A stretch of DNA of 64,000 nt from a virus, in the IMG/VR virus record IMGVR_UViG_3300027791_000007, positions 84,444 to 148,443 of that record. One strand, written 5' to 3'. Positions 4,166-54,075 of the stretch are shown here, piece by piece (the stretch's first letter is position 1; every line of letters starts with the position of its first letter). The position numbers were made by a program, and so were the translations under genes. Under the pieces are notes generated by a model. The model saw nothing but the letters and a program-made list of their open reading frames with translations, was not told where the DNA came from and ran no database searches.

Positions 4166-5376
4166 TACATATCTTCTAAAGAGTTTTTGATCTTATATTC
4201 TAATGAAATCACCTCTACATTAAAACCCTTAGGCGCAATCCAAAACTCAATGTCATCCATCACCTTAGGCAACCACTTCTTGTTCCACTCTTGCATGGTC
4301 TTCCAATTGGGATGGGTGATGTAAATAGTTGCATACTTCTTCTTTGACTTTGCCTTTACAAGTAACTTTAACTCATCTTGTAACGAATGTAAGTTAAACT
4401 TTCCAGATGAAGCGTGCATTGAAATTGAATCCTTATCAGTAGCATTTTCAAGAATAGTAGCTAATTCAGACTTGTATAGTGACCACTTCTTCCAAATCCA
4501 ACCATCAGGCAACTTATCATTTAGAGTAATCGTTGTCTGTGCCTTATTGATAATCCAGTTGATTTGTCTTGTGCTCCAATTCATATCTTCCAAGTATTTA
4601 ATATTATCTGTTGAGTCGGCCGGAACACCTTTCTTATTAAATGCAGCAACAATCCATGCTACTTGGTCGTCTGGATGACCAACCTTTGTAGCCTTTTTCT
4701 GCTGAGGATTTAACAGATTAGCAAGAATTTGTAACTGTGTGACATCAAACTGATTCCAAATCTTCTTTGAGATATACATAACTGGCACCTTAATTACATG
4801 AGAAACCCTCTTTGCGGCCGCAGTAGTGTGATTACCATCAAGAATGATATCATCACCATTCTTTCCATATCCCTTTAATACAATAATTGGATCAAAACTA
4901 TCAATCTTTCCATGTAAGTCAATCATAGCATCTGCAAGAACTCCAACATGATTAGTGTCAGTATTTTCTACCCTTGTCTGATACCTCGCAAGTTCAGTAA
5001 TTATTGACTTCTCAATCAACTCAATAGGTAATTCCTTAGTCTTAATCATTTGAGATAATTCCCTCAATTCTAAATTCTTACCTACTGTCTTGAGGTACTT
5101 ACCACCACCATTTGACTTGTTGTAGTATTCTTCATTGTTGTTCGCATCTACTTCTAATAACATATTTCTCTCCAATGTCGCCATATTAATTTTAGTTCCT
5201 TGTTTCACAATCTTGTATTCATTATCACCCTCAGCAAAATCTTCCATGAAAATAGGACACTTACTTGAATGAATATAATTAGAAATAGTTTCTCCTTTTT
5301 TTAAAACATGATAACCAATATACTTCTTTCCAGTTCCATTAACTGTGATTTCGTAAACATAAGCTTCTTGATTCAT
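4165..5376 (-). CDS. GIY-YIG-like / ParB-like domain fusion
   Basis: 403 residues with two apparent nuclease-type domains. Residues 1-95 look like a GIY-YIG module: YVYEIT (6-11), YIGYHV (19-24), a Glu-containing helix TLERNMLLEVDA (67-78) and an Asn/Gly segment YYNKSNGGG (84-92). Residues about 115-260 resemble a ParB/sulfiredoxin fold: the strand DDIILDGNHTTAAAKR (175-190) corresponds to the ParB -DG-HR-AA- motif, with Thr in place of the usual Arg. The rest is lysine-rich and unassigned. ParB-like domains recur in phage base-modification loci, but chromosome-partition or nicking roles are equally possible. It is the first gene behind a strong promoter (5409-5437). Confidence 0.55.
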   Translation of the reverse strand: MNQEAYVYEITVNGTGKKYIGYHVLKKGETISNYIHSSKCPIFMEDFAEGDNEYKIVKQGTKINMATLERNMLLEVDANNNEEYYNKSNGGGKYLKTVGKNLELRELSQMIKTKELPIELIEKSIITELARYQTRVENTDTNHVGVLADAMIDLHGKIDSFDPIIVLKGYGKNGDDIILDGNHTTAAAKRVSHVIKVPVMYISKKIWNQFDVTQLQILANLLNPQQKKATKVGHPDDQVAWIVAAFNKKGVPADSTDNIKYLEDMNWSTRQINWIINKAQTTITLNDKLPDGWIWKKWSLYKSELATILENATDKDSISMHASSGKFNLHSLQDELKLLVKAKSKKKYATIYITHPNWKTMQEWNKKWLPKVMDDIEFWIAPKGFNVEVISLEYKIKNSLEDM

Positions 5377-15531: not shown

Positions 15532-15604
15532 TGGAGCGGGCAGATGGAATTGAACCACCTTCTTCAATTTGGAAATTGACATAATACCTTTATACGATGC
15601 CCGC
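15532..15604 (-). tRNA. tRNA-Gly (UCC) with short anticodon loop
   Basis: Acceptor stem GCGGGCA pairs with TGCCCGC, followed by T and an encoded CCA. A D-arm with GG, and a T-arm GGTGG-TTCAATT-CCATC are intact. The anticodon arm is TCAAT-TTCCAA-ATTGA: a 5-bp stem closing only 6 nt (or a 4-bp stem closing 8 nt), one base fewer than the expected 7-nt loop, giving a 73-nt gene. The overall sequence is close to bacterial tRNA-Gly(UCC). The missing base may be real or a homopolymer assembly error. It sits just 3' of CobS on the same strand. Confidence 0.85.
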
Positions 15605-16890: not shown

Positions 16891-19155
16891 TTAGGCAATC
16901 ATTCCCACAAACTTGTTTAATACTGGGCGATTCGCCATCTTATTATTCGCAGATTTCATGAAGGCCTTTTTCAATTCACCAACTTTAGCGTTTGGTGATA
17001 CTTCAAACTCCTCTGATTCTTTCATTGCACCAGCACCAGGCAAGATATAAAATTCATCATAACCTTCCTCTTTACAAACTACTACGTTTTCTTTCTTTAG
17101 TTTTCTGTAAATATCCTTTATAGCATTATAGTCTGTATAACTATGTAGATCGAATTTATCAGAAATAATATTCTTATGAACCATACCTCTTTTTCCAGAA
17201 CCAGCAATAAAGAAACCTACAATATTCATATTAGGCACTCTTTTCTTTAATAACTTGAACATGGCAACAGTTTGTTCATTCCTATATCCATTAGACTTAC
17301 CAATTACAATTTTTGCATTTGTAACTGGGTCAGTGATATGAGTAGTACTTCTACTCCAACCTTGCACTGGTCTAGTAGTTTCAATATCATTACCATCTCT
17401 ATTAGTTATGATTGTGAAAGCATCATCCATTCTGTGACTATATCCATCAGTAAGAAAAACGGTGTGTATTTTTTCAACACCATGTTTTTTCTGAAAGTCT
17501 GGAACAATTTTCATTGCAGCGACAATAGCGTGATTAAGTGGTGTACCACCTAACTGAAACTTGTATGGTGGTGAAATAGGATAACCCTCTTGACTCCAAT
17601 TCCTATAACCCTTCCAAGCCTCGGCCATCATAAACATATAATGCATCATCTCAAACTGTTCTTTTTTCTTCATTGAAGAACTCAAAAAGTTAAACAATTT
17701 CAAATCTTCAATTGATAAATCACCAGACTTAAATTCTTGTTTAAATTGTCCTTCTCTTTTATTTCTAGAACACCTATCTGAAAAAGCATAAACGTCAAAA
17801 GGAATTTTAGTTCTCATACAAAATTCAGTAAGATTAAACAACTGTTTCATAGTACCACTCATATTTTCTTGCATTGATCCAGACCAATCCAAAAAGAAAA
17901 CTAAACCGTGATTTGTCGCACCAGGCACTGTAGTGACTTTAGCGAATAAATCCTCATTGAATTTGTAAGTGTGTAACTTACCCATATCAAGAGTTCCAGT
18001 TTTTGAAGTAGTAGCACGATTATACTGACTTGCAGCTTTTTTCATCTCAAATTCTTTAGTAATATAAGAAACTGTCTTTTTAGAACTTGTAAGAAAATCT
18101 TTCAACTCATCTTGAGTATAAGAGAAAAACCTATCTTGATGATCATTTTTATATTCTTCTCTCAATTCTAGTAGAAGATCAGTTGGTGTTTCAATCAAAT
18201 CTTTAATATTGTTTAGTTTTGGTATCCAAGCATATGTTCTATCTGTTGCAGTACCATCTATAAATTTCTTAGATGCACTCTGATAAGCACTATCTGTAGA
18301 AGCAACAAATGGTTTATCATCAGACTTACCACCTTCTCGACCATTAGATACGACTTCTTTTTTATCGTCCTTTTTGTCCTCTGATTCATTGTCTGCACCA
18401 GAACTACCATTTGGAGTTTGTTCCTCTTGGTCGTCCTTCTGGTCGTCTCCAGCCTCACTCTGGTCATCAGATTCACCGTTTTCTTGGTTATCTTCTTTAC
18501 CTTCACCAGCGTCTGATTTCTGTGGAGTCTGTTCACCAGACTCATTACCGTCACTAGGCATCTGACTCATCTTACCGTCAGCACCAGCACCATCTTGGTC
18601 TGGATCACCTTGGGATTCTTCGTTTTGTTCAATATATTCATATAACTCTTGAGCAAGTTTTAATACTTGTTTAGGAGTCTTAGTTTCATTTGCTTTTTGA
18701 ACCCACTCCATCTCTGCATCAGAAAATGGAACATCAGACACATGTTTAAAATGAAGATTAATTCTATCAATCAAGTTCATTGATTTTAGATGTTTACCTT
18801 GGAGTTTGAAAAAATCCATTTGTAATAATTCAGTATATCCTAGATTGAAACACCTAACACCGCCTGGGTATCTAGATTGTATCATCTTTTCAATTCTAAC
18901 ATCTTCTAGGACATTGACAAAAGAAAAATCAATATTTTTCTTTCTAGCGGTTTCCAACATATCTAATGGAGTCCAAAATGCATGACCTACCTCATGAAGT
19001 GTAAATAAGTCTTGAACACTTTCACTCATATCTTTCCAGATAGGTAAAACCAATTCACGATTTTTAACGTCAAAAGCAGCAGTTTCTACTTTTTTATGAA
19101 CTACATGGATATCTTCTTCTGCAAGTAACTTCGCAAGTCTCGATTTATCTTTCAT
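16891..19155 (-). CDS. CobT-like VWA protein with N-terminal HExxH motif
   Basis: About 754 residues from the ATG at 19155, which has AGAGG in front; a TTG at 19170 is a poorer start. The N-terminal domain contains HEVGHAFWTP (about 54-63), a zincin-type HExxH. A long acidic, Gln/Asp/Gly-rich linker spans roughly residues 190-290. The C-terminal domain is von Willebrand A: FLDWSGSMQ supplies the DxSxS metal site and FLTDGYS the distal acidic site. This is the CobT architecture and pairs with CobS. Whether the HExxH site is a working peptidase cannot be judged. Confidence 0.8.
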   Translation of the reverse strand: MKDKSRLAKLLAEEDIHVVHKKVETAAFDVKNRELVLPIWKDMSESVQDLFTLHEVGHAFWTPLDMLETARKKNIDFSFVNVLEDVRIEKMIQSRYPGGVRCFNLGYTELLQMDFFKLQGKHLKSMNLIDRINLHFKHVSDVPFSDAEMEWVQKANETKTPKQVLKLAQELYEYIEQNEESQGDPDQDGAGADGKMSQMPSDGNESGEQTPQKSDAGEGKEDNQENGESDDQSEAGDDQKDDQEEQTPNGSSGADNESEDKKDDKKEVVSNGREGGKSDDKPFVASTDSAYQSASKKFIDGTATDRTYAWIPKLNNIKDLIETPTDLLLELREEYKNDHQDRFFSYTQDELKDFLTSSKKTVSYITKEFEMKKAASQYNRATTSKTGTLDMGKLHTYKFNEDLFAKVTTVPGATNHGLVFFLDWSGSMQENMSGTMKQLFNLTEFCMRTKIPFDVYAFSDRCSRNKREGQFKQEFKSGDLSIEDLKLFNFLSSSMKKKEQFEMMHYMFMMAEAWKGYRNWSQEGYPISPPYKFQLGGTPLNHAIVAAMKIVPDFQKKHGVEKIHTVFLTDGYSHRMDDAFTIITNRDGNDIETTRPVQGWSRSTTHITDPVTNAKIVIGKSNGYRNEQTVAMFKLLKKRVPNMNIVGFFIAGSGKRGMVHKNIISDKFDLHSYTDYNAIKDIYRKLKKENVVVCKEEGYDEFYILPGAGAMKESEEFEVSPNAKVGELKKAFMKSANNKMANRPVLNKFVGMIA

Positions 19156-44062: not shown

Positions 44063-44070
44063 TATTTATA
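44063..44070 (-). promoter_or_regulatory. T4-type late promoter before the neck operon
   Basis: Exact TATAAATA on the minus strand, 17 bp before the ATG at 44045; directly follows a hairpin that ends the uptake operon. Confidence 0.75.
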
Positions 44071-44109: not shown

Positions 44110-44619
44110 TCATGGTTGTACACTCACTTCCCTTATTCTGTGTGGTTGTTTAATTATCCACTCAATAATATCAACAATATAATCTGGCGACATCTTTTTC
44201 TTTTCATTCCATTTTGGTTTGTCGACTCTAGGTGTGTCTACTAAACCCAATCTTAGATTCGTGATGTCGTGACCAAGGTGAAATAATTGTTCAGATGCTT
44301 TGTCTAATGCACCTTTCTCTACAGCATAAATATGTTTTTTATTTTTTATCCCATCACTAGAATTAGAACTTATATTAATAATTTTACCATCGTGTATATC
44401 CACAAGTTTATATAATAAGTTTACTTGTGAAAAACCATCATGTGCATTGTTAATAAAAATATCTGGTTCATATTCTTGTATTGCAAAAAGTATTTCCTCT
44501 CTATTATAATCATCTGATATGTCATGATCATTACTTCTTGAAAACCCCACAGTGTTTGGAAATCTTTTGCATATTGCTTTGCCTATGCCTGATGTATGTC
44601 CAGTTAATGCTATCTTCAT
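44110..44619 (-). CDS. Short-chain dehydrogenase/reductase-like protein
   Basis: 169 residues, shorter than typical SDRs (about 250). The cofactor motif TGHTSGIGKA (7-16), NNAH (in place of NNAG), the active-site Ser region ISSNSSDG and the catalytic YAVEK are all visible, so a Rossmann oxidoreductase with NAD(P) is likely; the C-terminal substrate part is reduced. Last gene of the operon with the transporter genes, start overlapping the preceding stop as TAATG. Might act on an imported compound; inference. Confidence 0.7.
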   Translation of the reverse strand: MKIALTGHTSGIGKAICKRFPNTVGFSRSNDHDISDDYNREEILFAIQEYEPDIFINNAHDGFSQVNLLYKLVDIHDGKIINISSNSSDGIKNKKHIYAVEKGALDKASEQLFHLGHDITNLRLGLVDTPRVDKPKWNEKKKMSPDYIVDIIEWIIKQPHRIREVSVQP

Positions 44620-45062
44620 TACAAAACTCCTACTATGTGTGTTCTTACTTTGTGTCTGTGGGCATTTACTGCCGTATGTTCTCTTGTTGTGTCTAAAATA
44701 TAATGATTACCATTTGCTGGCATTTGTATTATTTCTTTCATCTCTACTACGAAAAAACATTTCATATTTGTTTCTATGGGTAAGTGAAATCTTTTTGTGG
44801 GGTCTTTATGATACGAATAGTTCTCTTTTGGGTCTAATCTTAAAACTCTAGTTCTAACTAAACTATGAACTTTCATAATTTCATTTATAATTGGTAGGTC
44901 AAAGATAGGATATGTTAGTTCACTTTCTTCTATAGACATGTCTTTTATTTTACCACATCCTAACATATAATCTTTATTACCTTTGTAACTCTGTAAACAT
45001 ATTTGTTTATCCCACTCTGGTAATGTTGATAATTCTTTTTTTATCGATTCTAAATCATGCAT
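44619..45062 (-). CDS. Aspartyl/asparaginyl beta-hydroxylase-like oxygenase
   Basis: 147 residues. RVLRLDPKENYSYHKDPTKRFHLPIETN carries the HxD metal pair (YHKD) and the R-H-P-ET-N pattern of Asp/Asn hydroxylases; HTAVNAHRHKVRTHIVGVL carries the distal His and the co-substrate Arg. Compared with animal family members it is minimal. Coupled by an ATGCATGA overlap to the permease C-half gene, so it is in the uptake operon. Substrate unknown. Confidence 0.65.
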   Translation of the reverse strand: MHDLESIKKELSTLPEWDKQICLQSYKGNKDYMLGCGKIKDMSIEESELTYPIFDLPIINEIMKVHSLVRTRVLRLDPKENYSYHKDPTKRFHLPIETNMKCFFVVEMKEIIQMPANGNHYILDTTREHTAVNAHRHKVRTHIVGVL

Positions 45063-45915
45063 AATCTATCCTAGCGTTTTTATTTAGTAAACCAAATAAT
45101 ACAATACCTATTCCCACGATTATACAGATACTAAGTGTGGGATGGTTAAACCAAATGTCATTACTAAAGTATTTATTATTATAAAAATACATACCTTGTA
45201 GTTTTTCTACGCCAGATAAAAACTGATCGTATATGATAAAGGATAAAATAAATGCCGGTCTACTAAATTTATATGTCCTCATACCCCAACCAATTATGGA
45301 CAAAATAAACATCAAGAATAAATCCTCCTCCCATGTAATCCACCCACTGTACGACAATGCTGTGTAGATGGTCAGTAGTGTCAGAGGTAATATCCACCAA
45401 TATGGGTTTATATATAAAACTTTTGAAAGATACCTTGCACCCCATATTAATGCTATACCAGCGAATATAGTTCCAAGAATATATCCCCAGAAGATTGTTC
45501 TAAAAAACTCTTTATCTTCTAATAGAGATGTAGTACCTACATCAAAACCTAAGTATACCCATAGCGCAGTTAAGTATGCATACATTTTATTGCCTGGGAT
45601 ACCAAAAAATAATGTGGGAAGTAATGCACCGATCTTACCAGAATTATTTGCCCCCTCTGAGCCTATTACACCTTTGATATTACCATTACCAAACTTCTCT
45701 GTTTTGTGAATTGAGCGTGTGATTGAGTATGACATCCAATCGCCAGTTCCACCACCACCACCAGGCATGATACCACCAATGAAACCTACCCATCCACCAA
45801 TCATTGCTGTCCATTTATATTTCCAGACATCAACAATACCTTCCCAAGTTTGTTTATTATGTTCTTTAATTTCTATCTTTTTAAATTCATGTTTTACGAT
45901 AAGTGTTTCAACCAT
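45055..45915 (-). CDS. TctA-like permease, C-terminal half
   Basis: 286 residues with about 7 hydrophobic segments. The second TctA repeat signature is clear: GFIGGIMPGGGGGTGDWMSYS, FGNGNIKGVIGSEGANNSGKIGALLPTLFFGIPGN. Preceded by a hydrophilic stretch (residues 1-35) that corresponds to the central loop of a full TctA. Together with the N-half gene the total length is about 505 residues, that of a normal TctA. Overlaps the N-half by 22 bp in another frame. Large membrane subunit of tripartite tricarboxylate transporters. Confidence 0.75.
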   Translation of the reverse strand: MVETLIVKHEFKKIEIKEHNKQTWEGIVDVWKYKWTAMIGGWVGFIGGIMPGGGGGTGDWMSYSITRSIHKTEKFGNGNIKGVIGSEGANNSGKIGALLPTLFFGIPGNKMYAYLTALWVYLGFDVGTTSLLEDKEFFRTIFWGYILGTIFAGIALIWGARYLSKVLYINPYWWILPLTLLTIYTALSYSGWITWEEDLFLMFILSIIGWGMRTYKFSRPAFILSFIIYDQFLSGVEKLQGMYFYNNKYFSNDIWFNHPTLSICIIVGIGIVLFGLLNKNARIDYA

Positions 45916-46553
45916 CTCTGGTATAACAACAATCCTACACCCACAAGAACAAGTTTAACCCCATCGTTTAAATAAGTCCAACCAAGATTGTATGTTTCAT
46001 TTGTCCATTCGTTCAAACCAATTTGAGATAACCAACATCCAAATAGTACTGCAGCGATACTTCTCACTGTATACTTACTTGTTATGACAGCGACTAAACA
46101 AAAGGATAAGAATAAAATACCAGTTAACTCTGGCGTTCTTACAGCGTCATTGATTTCCATGTACAGAGGAAAGAATGAGAACCCTATAAGTCCAAAGATT
46201 AGTCCGTTCATCATTGATGTGAAGAGTGCAGAAGATAAAGCATAAGATGCTCTACCTTGTTTTGCAAGTGGATATCCATCCACCATTGTTGCAGCCGTTC
46301 CGTTTGCTCCAGGCACACCTAGTAGAACACTTGCATAAGAATCACCTATGGAACATGCAACAACTGTAACCATAGAAAAAAGGACAAAGAGATACTCTGC
46401 CCCATCAAAAAAATTTACTACACCGAATAGTAAGAGAATTGCTTTACCAGCACCAGCAGATGGTACAAGTCCAATAAGACCACCATAAACACAACCTAAT
46501 GTGATTATGATGGCCCATTGATAAACTTCTTCTAGTTGAAGAATGTACTCCAC
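45894..46553 (-). CDS. TctA-like permease, N-terminal half
   Basis: 219 residues, about 6 membrane segments. Signatures of the first TctA repeat: GGLIGLVPSAGAGKAILLLFG, and SYASVLLGVPGANGTAATMVDGYPLAKQGRASYALS, the strongly conserved GYPLA-GRA region. Start codon read as GTG at 46553, inside the TctC-like gene. Membrane part of a sodium- or proton-driven tricarboxylate uptake system; acts with a periplasmic TctC protein. TctB, the small third subunit, is not seen. Confidence 0.78.
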   Translation of the reverse strand: MEYILQLEEVYQWAIIITLGCVYGGLIGLVPSAGAGKAILLLFGVVNFFDGAEYLFVLFSMVTVVACSIGDSYASVLLGVPGANGTAATMVDGYPLAKQGRASYALSSALFTSMMNGLIFGLIGFSFFPLYMEINDAVRTPELTGILFLSFCLVAVITSKYTVRSIAAVLFGCWLSQIGLNEWTNETYNLGWTYLNDGVKLVLVGVGLLLYQRWLKHLS

Positions 46554-47608
46554 TTGATAGTCACCTTCTCACCAAAAACTTCTCTTGTAGTTTTGATATC
46601 ATTAAGCAATTCTTTACTGTTGATCGCACCAAAGATTGCAAGTTTAGAGTTGTTAGCATCAACACCAAGTGCCCATGGATATTTACCTAGTTTCTTATCT
46701 AATGACTTTCTACTAGTTTTGTTTTTCAACATAGCATCAAACGTCTTGATTAGAACATCAGTATGTGGATTATTTTTTGGAAAAAATACAGTTTTACCCA
46801 AACCACTTCTTGTCTTTAGAATAATTGCATATGCATCATAATAACGACCAGACGGTACTTGACCCCACTTCTCTTCATAGACAGTATTAAACCATTTCTC
46901 TGGCATAGCAGGATCTGGATTAATCTCTCCATTTAAAGAAACCCCATGAGTGTACCAGACTTGAGTTTTCCCAGATTTGATACCACCTTTATAGGTTTTA
47001 ATCATATGAGAAAACCCATCTCTTGTGACATCAATCTCACCGTTAAGAAATGCCTTTCGTCTATCTCCAGACCCTTTCCATCCCTTAACTTGTCTCATGT
47101 TAGACTTAGAACATTCGACTAACTTATCGAAATCCATCGGCCCACATAACATCATAGCAATTGACATTGCATCGACAATCGTTTCTGAACCACCACCAAT
47201 ATGAATGGCTGGTAACTCTGGAATAACTTTCTTTGCAAAAACAAAAGTTCCTTGGTTTTGTGCAATGATTGTTGCAAATGCTTTAGGGTCAAATCCACCC
47301 CAACCATTACCAGAAGTAATGTATTTAATCATACCACGACTTTGAATCATAGTCTTACCATTTTTTGCAAAGTTATTATTAAACTCAGCAAATGTTTTCT
47401 TTGGGTCACCAGGCATGTATCTAATCACAACCTTATGTCCTTCAGCTTTAAGAAATATGTTCCACTCTTTTACAACTCTTTGAGCCCATTTAGCATTACC
47501 ACCCTCTGGCCCTGCTGGAACGATGTATGTAAAGGTTTCTGCATGTGCCGTAAGAGACATAACAATCAACCCATAACAAAACAAAATAGATAATAGTAAA
47601 CTTCGCAT
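46532..47608 (-). CDS. TctC-like periplasmic substrate-binding protein
   Basis: 358 residues with an N-terminal signal peptide (RSLLLSILFCYGL core, AHA cleavage about residue 23). The mature part has the TctC-type layout: FTYIVPAGPEGGNAKWAQ, VRVVK-like strands, GSETIVDAMSIAMML and a later ALGVDANNSKLA region. Periplasmic binding component of a tripartite tricarboxylate transporter; the bound carboxylate is not predictable. Directly upstream of the permease N-half with 22-bp overlap. Confidence 0.68.
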   Translation of the reverse strand: MRSLLLSILFCYGLIVMSLTAHAETFTYIVPAGPEGGNAKWAQRVVKEWNIFLKAEGHKVVIRYMPGDPKKTFAEFNNNFAKNGKTMIQSRGMIKYITSGNGWGGFDPKAFATIIAQNQGTFVFAKKVIPELPAIHIGGGSETIVDAMSIAMMLCGPMDFDKLVECSKSNMRQVKGWKGSGDRRKAFLNGEIDVTRDGFSHMIKTYKGGIKSGKTQVWYTHGVSLNGEINPDPAMPEKWFNTVYEEKWGQVPSGRYYDAYAIILKTRSGLGKTVFFPKNNPHTDVLIKTFDAMLKNKTSRKSLDKKLGKYPWALGVDANNSKLAIFGAINSKELLNDIKTTREVFGEKVTIKWSTFFN

Positions 47609-47627
47609 TTTAAATTTTCCTTTTCAA

Positions 47628-48014
47628 TTAGAATGTATATTTAATTTCAACTTTTAGATTGTCTCTAGTCTTGTCACCAATACCACTGTCTTGTCCATCC
47701 CAACGTCTTGAAAATGAAGGAATGATTTTAAAAGAAGTTTTAGTGTCACCAACATTGAATTTAAAATCTCGATCAATCTTTAATTCGTTGAAGTTAGTTG
47801 TACTTGAAGAAGCATCTTGTGAGTGAGTTGCCTTAGTACGAATATCACCAAGTTGTTCCCACTTATGCGATATATATGCATAGTTGTAAGTTTTGGTTGT
47901 GCCCTCATTGGAACTATTATATTTGGTTTCACGGTCAATACCCATACCGATATCTGTAGCATTTGCCGTAGTTGTCATTGCCATTAGGGCAACTGCTGTT
48001 AGTACTTTTTTCAT
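47628..48014 (-). CDS. Small secreted or outer-membrane-type protein
   Basis: 128 residues. Clear signal peptide (MKKVLTAVALMAM..., cleavage after TANA near residue 20) and a mature part of alternating polar/aromatic strands ending in EIKYTF; a C-terminal Phe is the usual beta-barrel sorting signal. About 108 mature residues would make a small barrel or an incomplete one, so a periplasmic or surface protein is also possible. First gene behind a strong promoter and upstream of the TctC-like gene, so it may help nutrients cross the outer membrane; inference. Confidence 0.6.
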   Translation of the reverse strand: MKKVLTAVALMAMTTTANATDIGMGIDRETKYNSSNEGTTKTYNYAYISHKWEQLGDIRTKATHSQDASSSTTNFNELKIDRDFKFNVGDTKTSFKIIPSFSRRWDGQDSGIGDKTRDNLKVEIKYTF

Positions 48015-48046
48015 TCTTATATCTCCGTTAGTTAAAATGAATATAC

Positions 48047-48075
48047 ACTATAACATTAATTTTCATCATTGTCAA
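48047..48075 (-). promoter_or_regulatory. Early-type sigma70 promoter for the uptake operon
   Basis: Minus strand TTGACA (48075-48070), 17-bp spacer, TATAGT (48052-48047). The -35 and most of the spacer lie over the last codons of the AsnB-GNAT gene. ATG of the first gene is 33 bp downstream with CGGAGAT. Confidence 0.78.
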
Positions 48076-50422
48076 GTGTTTTTTTGTTTAAAATCACAAT
48101 ATAATTCTTATCTTGGGTAGTTACTATTTCATCACTCCTTTTGATAAATCCAATGCTTTCGTAAGATTTTATTGAAGCTGTTTTGGGAACAGACCATACA
48201 TATTGAGTATCAGCTGAATCCACAACGGCATTCAGTAACATCTTACTAATTCTTCTTCCTCTATAATCTGGATGTACCCACAGCCCTCTAGAGCGCCATG
48301 AGATTTGGCAGGTTTTATGTCCACTGTTCACACCGATTAACTTTTCGTTTTCATACACTCCATAGTAGTTGACATCTTCTGTTGTCTTTATATTTATATC
48401 ATGGTCAATCATGTCTTTTACAATAACTACATTGTCATAGAAAAAACATTCCTTCATCAAAGTCCAAGTACTTACATTTGGGGTATCTTTCCTATCAGGC
48501 CAGAGTTGTTTCCAACCCTCAAGTATATCCTCAAATGTTATTTCCTTGACAGTATATATAAGATCTGGGTCTACACCTAAAGATAAAATACTTTTCCAAG
48601 AAGGTTTAACTGTATTATATTTTCTATCATATTCCCACATATTAAAATTACCGTAAAGGTCATCATAAACTGGTAATGTTGTATTTTTTAAATGATCTGG
48701 GTCTTTAATATTTAATCCGATAAATTCTGCTAACACCATTAAGTTTTGTGGTGTAAGATTTAGATGAAATGAATCTTTCATTGATTGATTAATTATTTTC
48801 ATAGAATTAACAAGTGGTAAAGGAGTAGGTAGTTTTTTGTCACCTTCCTGCCAATCAGCATATCCAATCTGTGATTTTATTAAATTATTAAATACAGACA
48901 TTACATTTGGACTTTTTACATTGTTGAATAATTCTGTATTTGTTATACCAAGAGGTATTATCATTAATGTTTTATTTTCTCTAATTTCCTTCCACAACTT
49001 ATCTCTAAGTTTTTCATTTTTGGGAAACTCATAATCTTCTGATACGATATCAAATTTAGCATTTTGTATCCAAATGTTATTTGCAAAATACTGTGCTGTT
49101 TTAGCATCCTTTAAAATAAATATTCCTAGTGGGTTCATGCCACTATTCGTTACTCGTAATCCCTTTTCTTTTTTGGATGTGTATATTTTTCTTTGTAGCA
49201 TCTGTTCTGTATCAAATGGTATACCCATTCCTACAATATCATAATCCCACGAAAGTCCACTCCACTCTTTACCAAAATATTTTTCACCCATATTATACAA
49301 TTTCTTTTTCTTCATAGAATTTGAAAGATTAGATTGTCTAGTTTCTTTTTTGAAAATATTAATTTTTTGTAGTTCACGATCTGCAAATGGGGCAAACCAT
49401 TCGTTTCTATGGTCTTGCGACTCTTGATATAATCTTGAAGATTGATAAGATGGTATCCAAAAGATATTGTGTTTTAAAGGATGGTCTTTTAATTCTTTTA
49501 ATATTTTTCTATAGTATTCATAGATGTAATCCATAGATTCATCTTGTACTTTCCATACTTTTGTGTCAAAATTTTCCATACCTCTACCGTAATATGTATC
49601 ATTATTGAACATACGTTTGATATATTCTGTAATATAAATGTCATCATCTACAACACCCATGTCTTTCATCCATTGAATTTTTTTTGAATGATCTGATTCA
49701 CTGGATTCGCCAGACATTTTTATACCTTTGTGTTTTGATACTGAATGACTTTTAAGTGGATAAATTGAATCAGACCAAAACTCTGTAAACACTTTATCCT
49801 CTTCATCATAAACATCATGTATAAAGTCTACCTCAAAGTTTTCTATTTCCCAACCCATCTCTTTTCTATATCTATCACAGCATATGTCATCTATTCCGTT
49901 ATAATTATTAGGACTTGTGATATGAATTAAATTAGGATTGAATCCTCTGTGTTTTAAAAACATAACTAACCAAGCGCTATCTCTACCACCACTTAGTCCA
50001 ACTGTTATTTCCTTACCTTTGTGTAAATCTAACAGATAACAAAATCTTTCATACTCCTCTTCTATATCATACTCAATCAAATCTTGATTTAGAAAAGGTT
50101 TCCAATTCTCCTCAACTCTTTTGATTTGATTATAGATTGTGCCTGGGCCTACTGTATGTCGTTTAAGATATTTTAATTGTCCAGTTGTAATTCTGTCAGT
50201 AGTTAGTTTTGTTCCCAACTCTTTTTCTGCATCAACTATCTCTTTAAAAGATGGTGATATAAAATTGTCTGAATAGAATAATTGTGTGGTAGCAAAATGA
50301 TCTACAGTTGCTGACCACCTACCGTCTTTCATAAAGACAGAAGCAGATTGACCATCATACCCATAAGTATAATAGTTTCCTTTCTTAACAAACTTTCTAA
50401 TACCATTATTTAAAAATTTCAT
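48056..50422 (-). CDS. Asparagine-synthase-like / GNAT acetyltransferase fusion
   Basis: About 788 residues from the ATG at 50422; a longer frame to 50470 would run into the upstream gene. The PP-loop VGLSGGRDSAWLV lies at about residues 141-153 and is the ATP-pyrophosphatase site of AsnB. The N-terminal part is glutaminase-domain-like but starts MKFLNN, so the usual N-terminal catalytic Cys is absent and ammonia must come from elsewhere. The C-terminal 120 residues are a GNAT: GLWVHPDYRGRRISKMLLNAV and SIKSYESIGF. Ends the 48-56-kb cluster. May amidate or acylate a sugar or peptide intermediate. Confidence 0.7.
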   Translation of the reverse strand: MKFLNNGIRKFVKKGNYYTYGYDGQSASVFMKDGRWSATVDHFATTQLFYSDNFISPSFKEIVDAEKELGTKLTTDRITTGQLKYLKRHTVGPGTIYNQIKRVEENWKPFLNQDLIEYDIEEEYERFCYLLDLHKGKEITVGLSGGRDSAWLVMFLKHRGFNPNLIHITSPNNYNGIDDICCDRYRKEMGWEIENFEVDFIHDVYDEEDKVFTEFWSDSIYPLKSHSVSKHKGIKMSGESSESDHSKKIQWMKDMGVVDDDIYITEYIKRMFNNDTYYGRGMENFDTKVWKVQDESMDYIYEYYRKILKELKDHPLKHNIFWIPSYQSSRLYQESQDHRNEWFAPFADRELQKINIFKKETRQSNLSNSMKKKKLYNMGEKYFGKEWSGLSWDYDIVGMGIPFDTEQMLQRKIYTSKKEKGLRVTNSGMNPLGIFILKDAKTAQYFANNIWIQNAKFDIVSEDYEFPKNEKLRDKLWKEIRENKTLMIIPLGITNTELFNNVKSPNVMSVFNNLIKSQIGYADWQEGDKKLPTPLPLVNSMKIINQSMKDSFHLNLTPQNLMVLAEFIGLNIKDPDHLKNTTLPVYDDLYGNFNMWEYDRKYNTVKPSWKSILSLGVDPDLIYTVKEITFEDILEGWKQLWPDRKDTPNVSTWTLMKECFFYDNVVIVKDMIDHDINIKTTEDVNYYGVYENEKLIGVNSGHKTCQISWRSRGLWVHPDYRGRRISKMLLNAVVDSADTQYVWSVPKTASIKSYESIGFIKRSDEIVTTQDKNYIVILNKKTLDNDEN

Positions 50423-51113
50423 AATCAATCCATTCGTGAGGTTTGTTTGAAGAATGTGTAAAGTGAACAAATTTTATATCTTCGTGAAACTCTCCCCCCA
50501 TGTATGCAAATTCATTTCCAGTTAGTTCTGTATATTTCTCTGTCATTTTTATCATAAACAATTTTTCTGATTGGTATTCTTGCAACGGTTTTGTGCTTGC
50601 AACCCATCTAATAAACCATGCTTTTGGTAAAAGTTTTAGTTTTAATTTTTCCTTAACACTATCCTCAACAAAGTATTGTTCTCCGTTTACAGGCCCACTT
50701 GTAACTCCATTATCAATGTAGTGTCTCTGCCATTTACGAATATCAGACATAAACTTATCATAGATGTATCTACAATCTTTTGGATAGTATTTAAAGAACC
50801 CACCATTAATTTTATAGTTCTCTGAATTAGTATCTCTCCACCAACCAGGCATTGCAAGAAACTCACCTTTCTCTATAGGATAGTCAAACACTTTCTTATA
50901 ATCATTTGTAAGTAATATGTCAATATCCATAACACAGATAGGTTCATCAATGTCGAGTTGCATACCCCACATTTTATTCCACTGTAAAGTAACCTTATCG
51001 TGATACGGTTGTCGTATCCAGATAAATTCATGTTCTGGTAATTTATTCTCTAGATATGTTTCATACTCTGGGCCGTACTTTTCACCTATTCGTACACATA
51101 ATATTTTTGCCAT
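50406..51113 (-). CDS. Glycosyltransferase-like protein (GT-A, DxD)
   Basis: 235 residues. ILCVRIGEKYGPEYETYLENKLPEHEF, ICVMDIDILLTNDYK with a DxD metal site, YKINGGFFKY and a final VHFTHSSNKPHEW. A paralogue at 55479-56291 shares the opening (LCVRWGDKY--TYVKKL) and DIDIL block. Such proteins occur in marine phage surface or small-molecule clusters. Sugar and acceptor unknown. Confidence 0.65.
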   Translation of the reverse strand: MAKILCVRIGEKYGPEYETYLENKLPEHEFIWIRQPYHDKVTLQWNKMWGMQLDIDEPICVMDIDILLTNDYKKVFDYPIEKGEFLAMPGWWRDTNSENYKINGGFFKYYPKDCRYIYDKFMSDIRKWQRHYIDNGVTSGPVNGEQYFVEDSVKEKLKLKLLPKAWFIRWVASTKPLQEYQSEKLFMIKMTEKYTELTGNEFAYMGGEFHEDIKFVHFTHSSNKPHEWIDYEIFK

Positions 51114-52728: not shown

Positions 52729-54075
52729 CTAAAAAACTTTAACTTTTGTTTCTTTTTCAAAATCATTAGCGTGTTCCCATGTGTTAACCATTGGTTTTCC
52801 TCTTATATTTAGGGATGTGTTTAACAACATAGGACAACCAGTTTTATCATACCACTCTTCTAGAATAGGTCTAATTACAGATACACAATCTTTTTCTACG
52901 ACTTGAACTCTTGAAGTTCCATCTACATGTGTTACTGATGTGTAATCATGTTTGGATTTCGATACAAATTGCATGTAGCGATTCATTGGGCCTTCAAAGT
53001 ATTCCTCTGCATATTCTTCTAGTATTGCTGGAGCAAAAGGTCTGAACTTTTCTCTTCGTTTTATTTCATTAACTGTATCTTTAATTGGTTCTCTTGGGTC
53101 AGCAATGAGTGAACGATTACCTAACGCTCTTGGGCCGAACTCTGCCCTACCATTTGCCACACCACACATTTTATGTTTAAGTAAATGTTTGACAACTTCT
53201 TTAGGATTTATTTCTCTTTTTATATCATATCCTAAATATGGGTGCCTCCAGTTTAGTTTCTGTTGAAACACCATTGCAGCCGCACCTAAAGAAGACCCAG
53301 CATCACTTGGGGATGGCATTATCCATATATTCTTACCTTGTATTTTACTATTTGCAACACAGTTTAAAGCACAACCACCCATTATAACAAGGTTTGGTTC
53401 TGGACACTTATCTACAAGTTTTAGTAATTCCTCTTCATATACTGCTTGAACTGATGCAGCCAAATCTTCTGGTTTACCAGTAAACTTTATATCTAACCCA
53501 TAGTGATTATTGTTGTTGTCTAATCTTCTTTTTAACATTGTCTTGTGTTTAGGTTCTCCAAATGCAGCCATACCCATAACAATATATTCTTCTTCGTTTG
53601 GTTTATATCCCAACATTTCTGTAACGGCTGAATATAACAATCCTAAAGACCAAGGATATCTACGAGAATATATCTTCTTTAGTGTTTTATATTTGGAAAG
53701 ATTACCTTGATCAGCGTACCATATTGAAGTAGTATCCCATTCCCCTATTGCATCTACAACTATAACATTTGCTTTTCTGAATGGTGATGTGTAGAAACCA
53801 GCAGCTGCATGTGTTTTGTGGTGGGGGAAACACATATCAAACTTTGGTTTTTTGGTTATCCATTTCTGTCCAGCATACAATCTTCTAGTATTTTTCCAGA
53901 AAGGACTTTCAAAGTAACTTCTCACATCTGAAACACGACTCATGCTTGGGTGTATTCTACTATCACCTTTTATTTGTGAATATCGCTCACTGTGTGATGC
54001 AAAGATAATTTCTCTATCTTCTATGAGACAATAGGCAGCATCATGACTACCTTCACTAATTCCTGCTATTCTCAT
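52729..54075 (-). CDS. Carbamoyltransferase (NodU/CmcH-like)
   Basis: 448 residues, shorter than NodU-type enzymes (about 550-600). ISEGSHDAAYCLI (6-18), FPHHKTHAAAGFYTSPF (83-99), GGCALNCVANSKI and the C-terminal GRAEFGPRALGNRSLIADPR are the diagnostic motifs. These enzymes move a carbamoyl group from carbamoyl phosphate to a hydroxyl of a sugar or small molecule. Carried by some marine phages. Fits a cluster that decorates a glycan or other metabolite with carbamoyl, methyl and hydroxyl groups. Confidence 0.88.
   Translation of the reverse strand: MRIAGISEGSHDAAYCLIEDREIIFASHSERYSQIKGDSRIHPSMSRVSDVRSYFESPFWKNTRRLYAGQKWITKKPKFDMCFPHHKTHAAAGFYTSPFRKANVIVVDAIGEWDTTSIWYADQGNLSKYKTLKKIYSRRYPWSLGLLYSAVTEMLGYKPNEEEYIVMGMAAFGEPKHKTMLKRRLDNNNNHYGLDIKFTGKPEDLAASVQAVYEEELLKLVDKCPEPNLVIMGGCALNCVANSKIQGKNIWIMPSPSDAGSSLGAAAMVFQQKLNWRHPYLGYDIKREINPKEVVKHLLKHKMCGVANGRAEFGPRALGNRSLIADPREPIKDTVNEIKRREKFRPFAPAILEEYAEEYFEGPMNRYMQFVSKSKHDYTSVTHVDGTSRVQVVEKDCVSVIRPILEEWYDKTGCPMLLNTSLNIRGKPMVNTWEHANDFEKETKVKVF

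Follow-up and report, generated by a model that had tools for sequence, protein, structure and literature searches.

Most auxiliary genes carried by phages encode an isolated enzyme or one component of a transporter, and the question raised by the locus described here is whether a virus can encode an uptake pathway of its own, which is what this locus would be if the reading given below is true. The window analysed, a stretch of 64,000 nucleotides, covers positions 84444 to 148443 of a virus record of 148,443 bases. An earlier note, made from the letters of the window, had proposed a carboxylate uptake operon comprising an outer-membrane-type protein, a TctC-like binding protein, a TctA-like permease in two ORFs, a hydroxylase and an SDR. 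For this T4-like phage, the analysis upholds a TctA permease, a binding protein of the TctC type as judged by its predicted fold, and the sigma70-type promoter ahead of them, whereas the split permease is not supported.

Layout of the locus and its promoter

Six co-directional ORFs fill positions 48014 to 44110 on the minus strand, as seen from ORF positions and translations, and each lies where it had been placed before. From 5' to 3' they encode a secreted protein of 128 aa, a secreted protein of 358 aa, two membrane ORFs, and proteins of 147 and 169 aa. The features of the locus are:

48047–48075, minus strand: sigma70-type promoter, TTGACA-17-TATAGT with TG before the -10 box, located within the 3'-terminal part of the gene upstream
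47628–48014, minus strand: 128-aa secreted small all-beta protein with terminal Phe, candidate outer-membrane barrel (sequence and AF2 model)
46532–47608, minus strand: predicted periplasmic solute-binding protein, divergent TctC/Bug type (AF2, Foldseek, hhalign, gene pairing)
45894–46553, minus strand: TctA permease, N-terminal part, same gene as 45055–45915 (PF01970)
45055–45915, minus strand: TctA permease, C-terminal part (PF01970)
44619–45062, minus strand: Asp/Asn beta-hydroxylase-like protein, recurrent optional neighbour (PF05118, motif)
44110–44619, minus strand: short SDR, recurrent optional neighbour of the hydroxylase (PF00106 just below the cut-off, motifs)
44063–44070, minus strand: TATAAATA, a box like a T4-type late promoter at the operon boundary, before the next structural gene (count not above chance)

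The proposed promoter is real, matching its sigma70-type pattern exactly, and close relatives retain it. Three near-consensus sites of this type were observed in the window where 0.29 would be expected, and in five contigs of related phages the -35 box is invariant and the -10 box reads TATAGT or TAAAGT. As a mark of late promoters, the 8-mer TATAAATA was found 11 times, compared to 9.7 by chance, and is not commoner than expected.

Positions 48056 to 50470 encode a protein of 804 aa in which a PP-loop region like that of asparagine synthases can be recognized by eye and a GNAT domain (PF13508, 9.6e-9) lies at the C-terminus; relatives of this protein are encoded near the binding protein/TctA pair in loci L097 and L036. 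The protein encoded at 52729–54075, NodU-type carbamoyltransferase-like by eye, has 41–45% relatives near TctA in L034, L043 and L053. A tRNA-like gene lies at 15532–15604, its anticodon unreadable to ARAGORN (tRNA-???).

Permease and binding protein

Both membrane ORFs fall within the TctA family to which they had been assigned, with matches to PF01970 well over the cut-off for 45894–46553 (model positions 3–202, E 1.2e-32) and for 45055–45915 (model positions 218–423, E 4.5e-39). The intact TctA of the relative L004, a single ORF of 499 aa, matches the same model with an E of 1.7e-77.

The binding protein required another approach. No match to PF03401 (TctC) was obtained in 33 records or with individually scanned binding proteins, even at E 5–10, and a sequence search with the binding protein against the PDB gave none, so that structural and profile-profile evidence was used. 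In an AF2 model built from a 42-sequence alignment (pLDDT 91, pTM 0.88), the top 17 PDB fold matches obtained with Foldseek were all TTT binding proteins, ahead of ABC-type proteins. Among them are TBP 8hk9 (the best, 1.7e-9), BugD, MatC, Bug27, TphC and TctC 4x9t, as well as 2dvz and 5oei, which we take to be members of the TTT family, in part following PMC5812351. TM-scores to the TTT matches amounted to 0.46–0.56 over the whole chain, which may reflect domain motion or divergence. In profile comparisons with hhalign, the binding protein scored 98.6% against a PF03401-positive TctC and 99.9% against the bacterial family encoded adjoining TctA, and the 42-sequence alignment shows that a glycine-rich N-terminal loop (GGG) is kept. 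From the fold matches and the profile comparison we infer that it is a divergent TctC-type protein by fold and remote homology; the earlier label of TctC-like thus holds at this level, although the Pfam model itself misses the protein.

The phage pair shares with tripartite tricarboxylate transporters (TctABC, TC 2.A.80, with the binding proteins Bug, TphC and MatC) a full-length TctA, the TctC-type fold with its N-terminal GGG loop, and co-directional adjacent genes. Unlike those systems, the pair has no detected TctB, its binding protein lies outside Pfam TctC, and it is encoded by T4-like phages. Viral proteins annotated as PBP2_Bug_TTT or Bordetella uptake proteins are predicted to have the same fold in uncultured Caudovirales (BFVD A0A6J5L7K0 and others), with just 12–13% identity to the binding protein studied here.

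The pair among phages and its bacterial relatives

Scans of IMG/VR yielded 373 TctA-like matches, the best 80 of which were analysed and, together with one locus on a genome contig, reduced to 28 sequences at 90% identity. Binding protein and TctA are both encoded in 26 of the 28 non-redundant loci, and the two loci without a binding protein end at a contig edge, L033 upstream and L083 downstream. The gene pair is therefore kept in every locus that is long enough, and the association that the earlier note had suggested seeking in related genomes is not lost. A single search round starting from the window protein recovered the binding protein in contig after contig that had been selected for TctA. 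The binding protein gene precedes TctA in the window's group, and the order is often reversed in the 39–41% group. At least about 80 viral loci, from diverse uncultured phages, carry a TctA of one clade, with a cognate binding protein in almost every locus of sufficient length.

The sequences indicate that the carrier is a T4-like phage. The window's contig encodes a phrog_2 terminase, a phrog_138 head protein and a phrog_23 sheath protein, all of T4 type, and its TerL is 70.5% identical to that of Melnitz and 69% to that of HTVC008M, the nearest cultured phages, isolates which suggest that the carriers are probably marine. Other proteins of the window phage are encoded in 62 of the 67 loci checked, and terminase in several. 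A search of genome collections gave one match, locus L097 (PBDY01000027.1) on a gammaproteobacterial MAG contig, and since this contig also encodes relatives of the window phage's other genes, it is probably phage DNA that was mis-binned. Among 50,697 annotated phage records there was no match to the binding protein and no close relative of TctA, the TctA matches in them being only 23–34% identical.

Uptake genes are known from marine phages, among them cyanophage pstS. A tctA gene was reported from SUP05 viral contigs, recognized by its protein domain only and of unknown role (PMC4164917), and tricarboxylate transport genes were found on a viral norB/nirK scaffold (PMC8115048). These may belong to the same family as the phage TctA described here, for which a cognate binding protein, the pairing and a phage clade are now reported in addition. 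In a literature search mostly outside subscription journals, neither the paired system nor the phage clade was found described, and mentions of phage TTT systems were few and brief.

In a TctA tree of 28 phage and 22 bacterial sequences, the bacterial set being drawn from one phylum, all phage sequences form one clade (100/100) on a long branch. The nearest bacterial TctAs are four proteins of 653–678 aa with an extra C-terminal stretch, in which one of the four shows a weak TctB match; as long branches meet at this point, the phage clade as such is better secured than the identity of its sister group. All four corresponding loci encode a member of the binding-protein family nearest to that of the phages, although that of L120 was not recovered by blast and is indicated by a profile match, and all four contain PrpF. 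PrpF-linked loci such as L118, L119 and L121 resemble the phage pair in that their TctA belongs to the sister clade and their binding protein is the best bacterial match of the phage protein; they differ from it in the extra C-terminal region of TctA. Among the ten bacterial loci with the strongest matches, TctA is present in 10 and PrpF in at least 7, the rest being short stretches. PrpF was not seen beside the phage pair, whereas the bacterial PrpF-linked loci have this isomerase gene alongside. PrpF-family isomerases act on aconitate-like tricarboxylates, and since PrpF genes accompany the bacterial TctAs closest to the phage ones, one might guess that the cargo is perhaps an aconitate-like di- or tricarboxylate.

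A possible importer, its broken frame and its optional neighbours

TctB is normally part of TTT systems, and none was visible in the window on first reading. Within detection limits this is correct: across 36 virus and MAG records, PF07331 matched nothing above its cut-off, with a single sub-threshold match (E 0.11) in a MAG genome. The three phage TctAs scanned contained no TctB match, the rest of the phage record yielded none either, and among the 28 non-redundant loci no family of small membrane proteins was widespread next to the pair. According to PMC5812351, TctB shows little conservation and has no known function, and in some archaea TctA occurs without it. A divergent TctB could therefore be missed by PF07331, and on the grounds given in that paper a two-part transporter is plausible. 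A small membrane protein with similarity to DUF6552, encoded beside the binding protein in some phages, was considered as a TctB substitute and rejected, as it occurs in a minority of loci only and weakly resembles MtN3/SWEET. In L080 and L088 its gene comes immediately after that of the binding protein or overlaps it, and the window phage also encodes a DUF6552-like protein far from the pair (L098, about 17335–17650; same coordinates in G000).

We consider it probable, on sequence and model evidence, that binding protein and TctA form a phage-specific, TctB-less, two-component TTT-like importer of a small carboxylate. The binding protein would catch the carboxylate in the host periplasm and pass it to the permease, and TctA would symport it into the infected cell without a recognizable TctB. 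Expression of the pair probably starts at the host-type (early) promoter, ahead of that of the late structural genes. What sequences and models establish is gene identity, the predicted fold, the pairing, the clade and the conserved promoter; transport activity, symport, the cargo and any gain for the phage are inferred from them. If active, such an importer would mean that the choice of dissolved organic acid imported by an infected bacterium is made by these viruses, and it would provide a minimal TTT transporter for testing if TctB is required.

Alternatively, the phage proteins might assemble with a host TctB and so boost or retarget a host TTT transporter. The lack of a TctB over the cut-off in the 36 records and the extended C-terminus of the nearest bacterial TctAs, with its weak TctB match in one case, are consistent with this view, which we nevertheless regard as unlikely, though still to be reckoned with. 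The phage TctA forms its own long-branched clade and is accompanied by a cognate binding protein in two gene orders, which suggests self-sufficiency, and the archaeal TctAs that occur without TctB point the same way.

Several points weigh against the two-component importer: besides the lack of a TctB match, the binding protein is missed by the Pfam TctC model and its whole-chain TM-scores are modest, the bacterial comparison set comes from one phylum, and in the window TctA is broken into two ORFs. Compared to the five relatives that could be aligned there, one base is absent in the window (TTT to TT, at about 45929); all five keep the base and the deletion is confined to this contig. TctA is a single frame in relatives that are 94–99% identical as well as in more distant ones, complete genes encoding 499–503 aa and phage TctAs in general being about 480–520 aa long. 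The idea of two TctA subunits can therefore be discarded in favour of a frameshift in this contig, which arose through faulty assembly or sequencing or through a recent loss of the base. Is the module then decaying in this phage, with a TctA pseudogene in the remnant of a recently acquired cassette? Besides the deletion itself, differences between close relatives in the genes beside the pair would fit such a scenario. However, TctA is intact in relatives about 99% identical over the C-terminal part, and one-base indels in a T run of a single metagenomic contig are a common assembly or sequencing error, which makes decay rather unlikely. In a comparison of L004 with L006 by the Nei-Gojobori method, dN/dS for TctA was about 0.07 (0.028/0.390), indicating that the permease is under purifying selection; between the window and L006, the ratio was 0.25 in the binding protein and 0.10 in one structural gene.

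The remaining genes had been proposed to act with the pair as one uptake-and-conversion pathway. The 147-aa protein is indeed Asp/Asn hydroxylase-like, matching PF05118 with 25.6 bits (cut-off 22.6, E 1.2e-5) and keeping the iron-binding motif HxD...H...R (H85, D87, H129, R140). The 169-aa protein stays just under the cut-off for PF00106 (25.3 versus 26.6 bits, E 1.2e-5) and contains TGxxxGIG and YxxxK; it has 42–43% relatives beside TctA in L031/L032/L038 and L097. For the 128-aa protein, a signal-like N-terminus and the terminal Phe were read from the sequence, and its AF2 model is all-beta with seven strands (pLDDT 76, pTM 0.63). A fold search with this model gave no significant match (best E 0.07). 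A 47% relative is encoded at L033:1507–1863, immediately after another phage TctA.

Such neighbours recur: the hydroxylase in 5 of the 28 loci, the SDR in 3, always together with the hydroxylase, and the small beta protein in 2. Three divergent lineages (the window group, the L031 group and L097) have both hydroxylase and SDR next to the pair, at 38–43% identity. The 50,697 phage records gave one hydroxylase match (Pelagibacter phage Mosig, 37%) and none for the SDR or the small beta protein. In another phage, positions 4693–9569 of L036, a 73.6-kb viral contig, encode one after another a Gram-negative porin (2.2e-22), a tandem pair of binding proteins and TctA. A similar logic of inner and outer membrane is seen in viral amtB with the porin ompL (PMC8115048). 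The recurrence of these genes, their near-absence from the phage records and the porin locus would favour a single pathway, which we nonetheless hold to be doubtful: most phages with the pair lack hydroxylase, SDR and beta protein, the close relatives L005, L006 and L013 have two other genes in place of the two enzymes, and phage hydroxylases may act on proteins. Absent from most loci and yet recurrent, these genes are optional additions around a core formed by binding protein and TctA. In some lineages, the small beta protein, a candidate for the outer-membrane entry step on the basis of its model, or the porin in the other phage, might let the solute through the outer membrane, and hydroxylase and SDR would be possible added enzymes. 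Whether a large clade of marine T4-like phages has its own minimal, TctB-less, early-expressed importer of one carboxylate, complemented in some lineages by an own outer-membrane entry protein and converting enzymes, is a tentative extension of the two-component reading, with chances somewhat short of even.

Phage-encoded membrane proteins often serve sensing, exclusion or lysis-related roles. A non-nutritional role of the pair, be it as a sensor, in keeping superinfecting phages out at the cell surface or in controlling membrane energy before lysis, would be in line with this tendency and with the outer-membrane curli pores proposed to time lysis in related phages (PMC9004378), but is improbable in view of a full-length TctA under purifying selection, the conserved glycine-rich loop of the binding protein and the strict pairing.

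Further genes were observed around the pair in individual phages. After TctA, PP-loop (QueC-like by eye) and oxygenase-like genes replace hydroxylase and SDR at L006:8839–10247 and L030:3482–4863. Secreted proteins encoded after TctA at L034:8344–9641 and L043:10874–12363 resemble the curli-pore proteins CsgF/CsgG by eye. In L047, L062 and L083 (for example L083:6310–7359), a second secreted protein, by eye like an amino-acid ABC binding protein, is encoded upstream of TctA.
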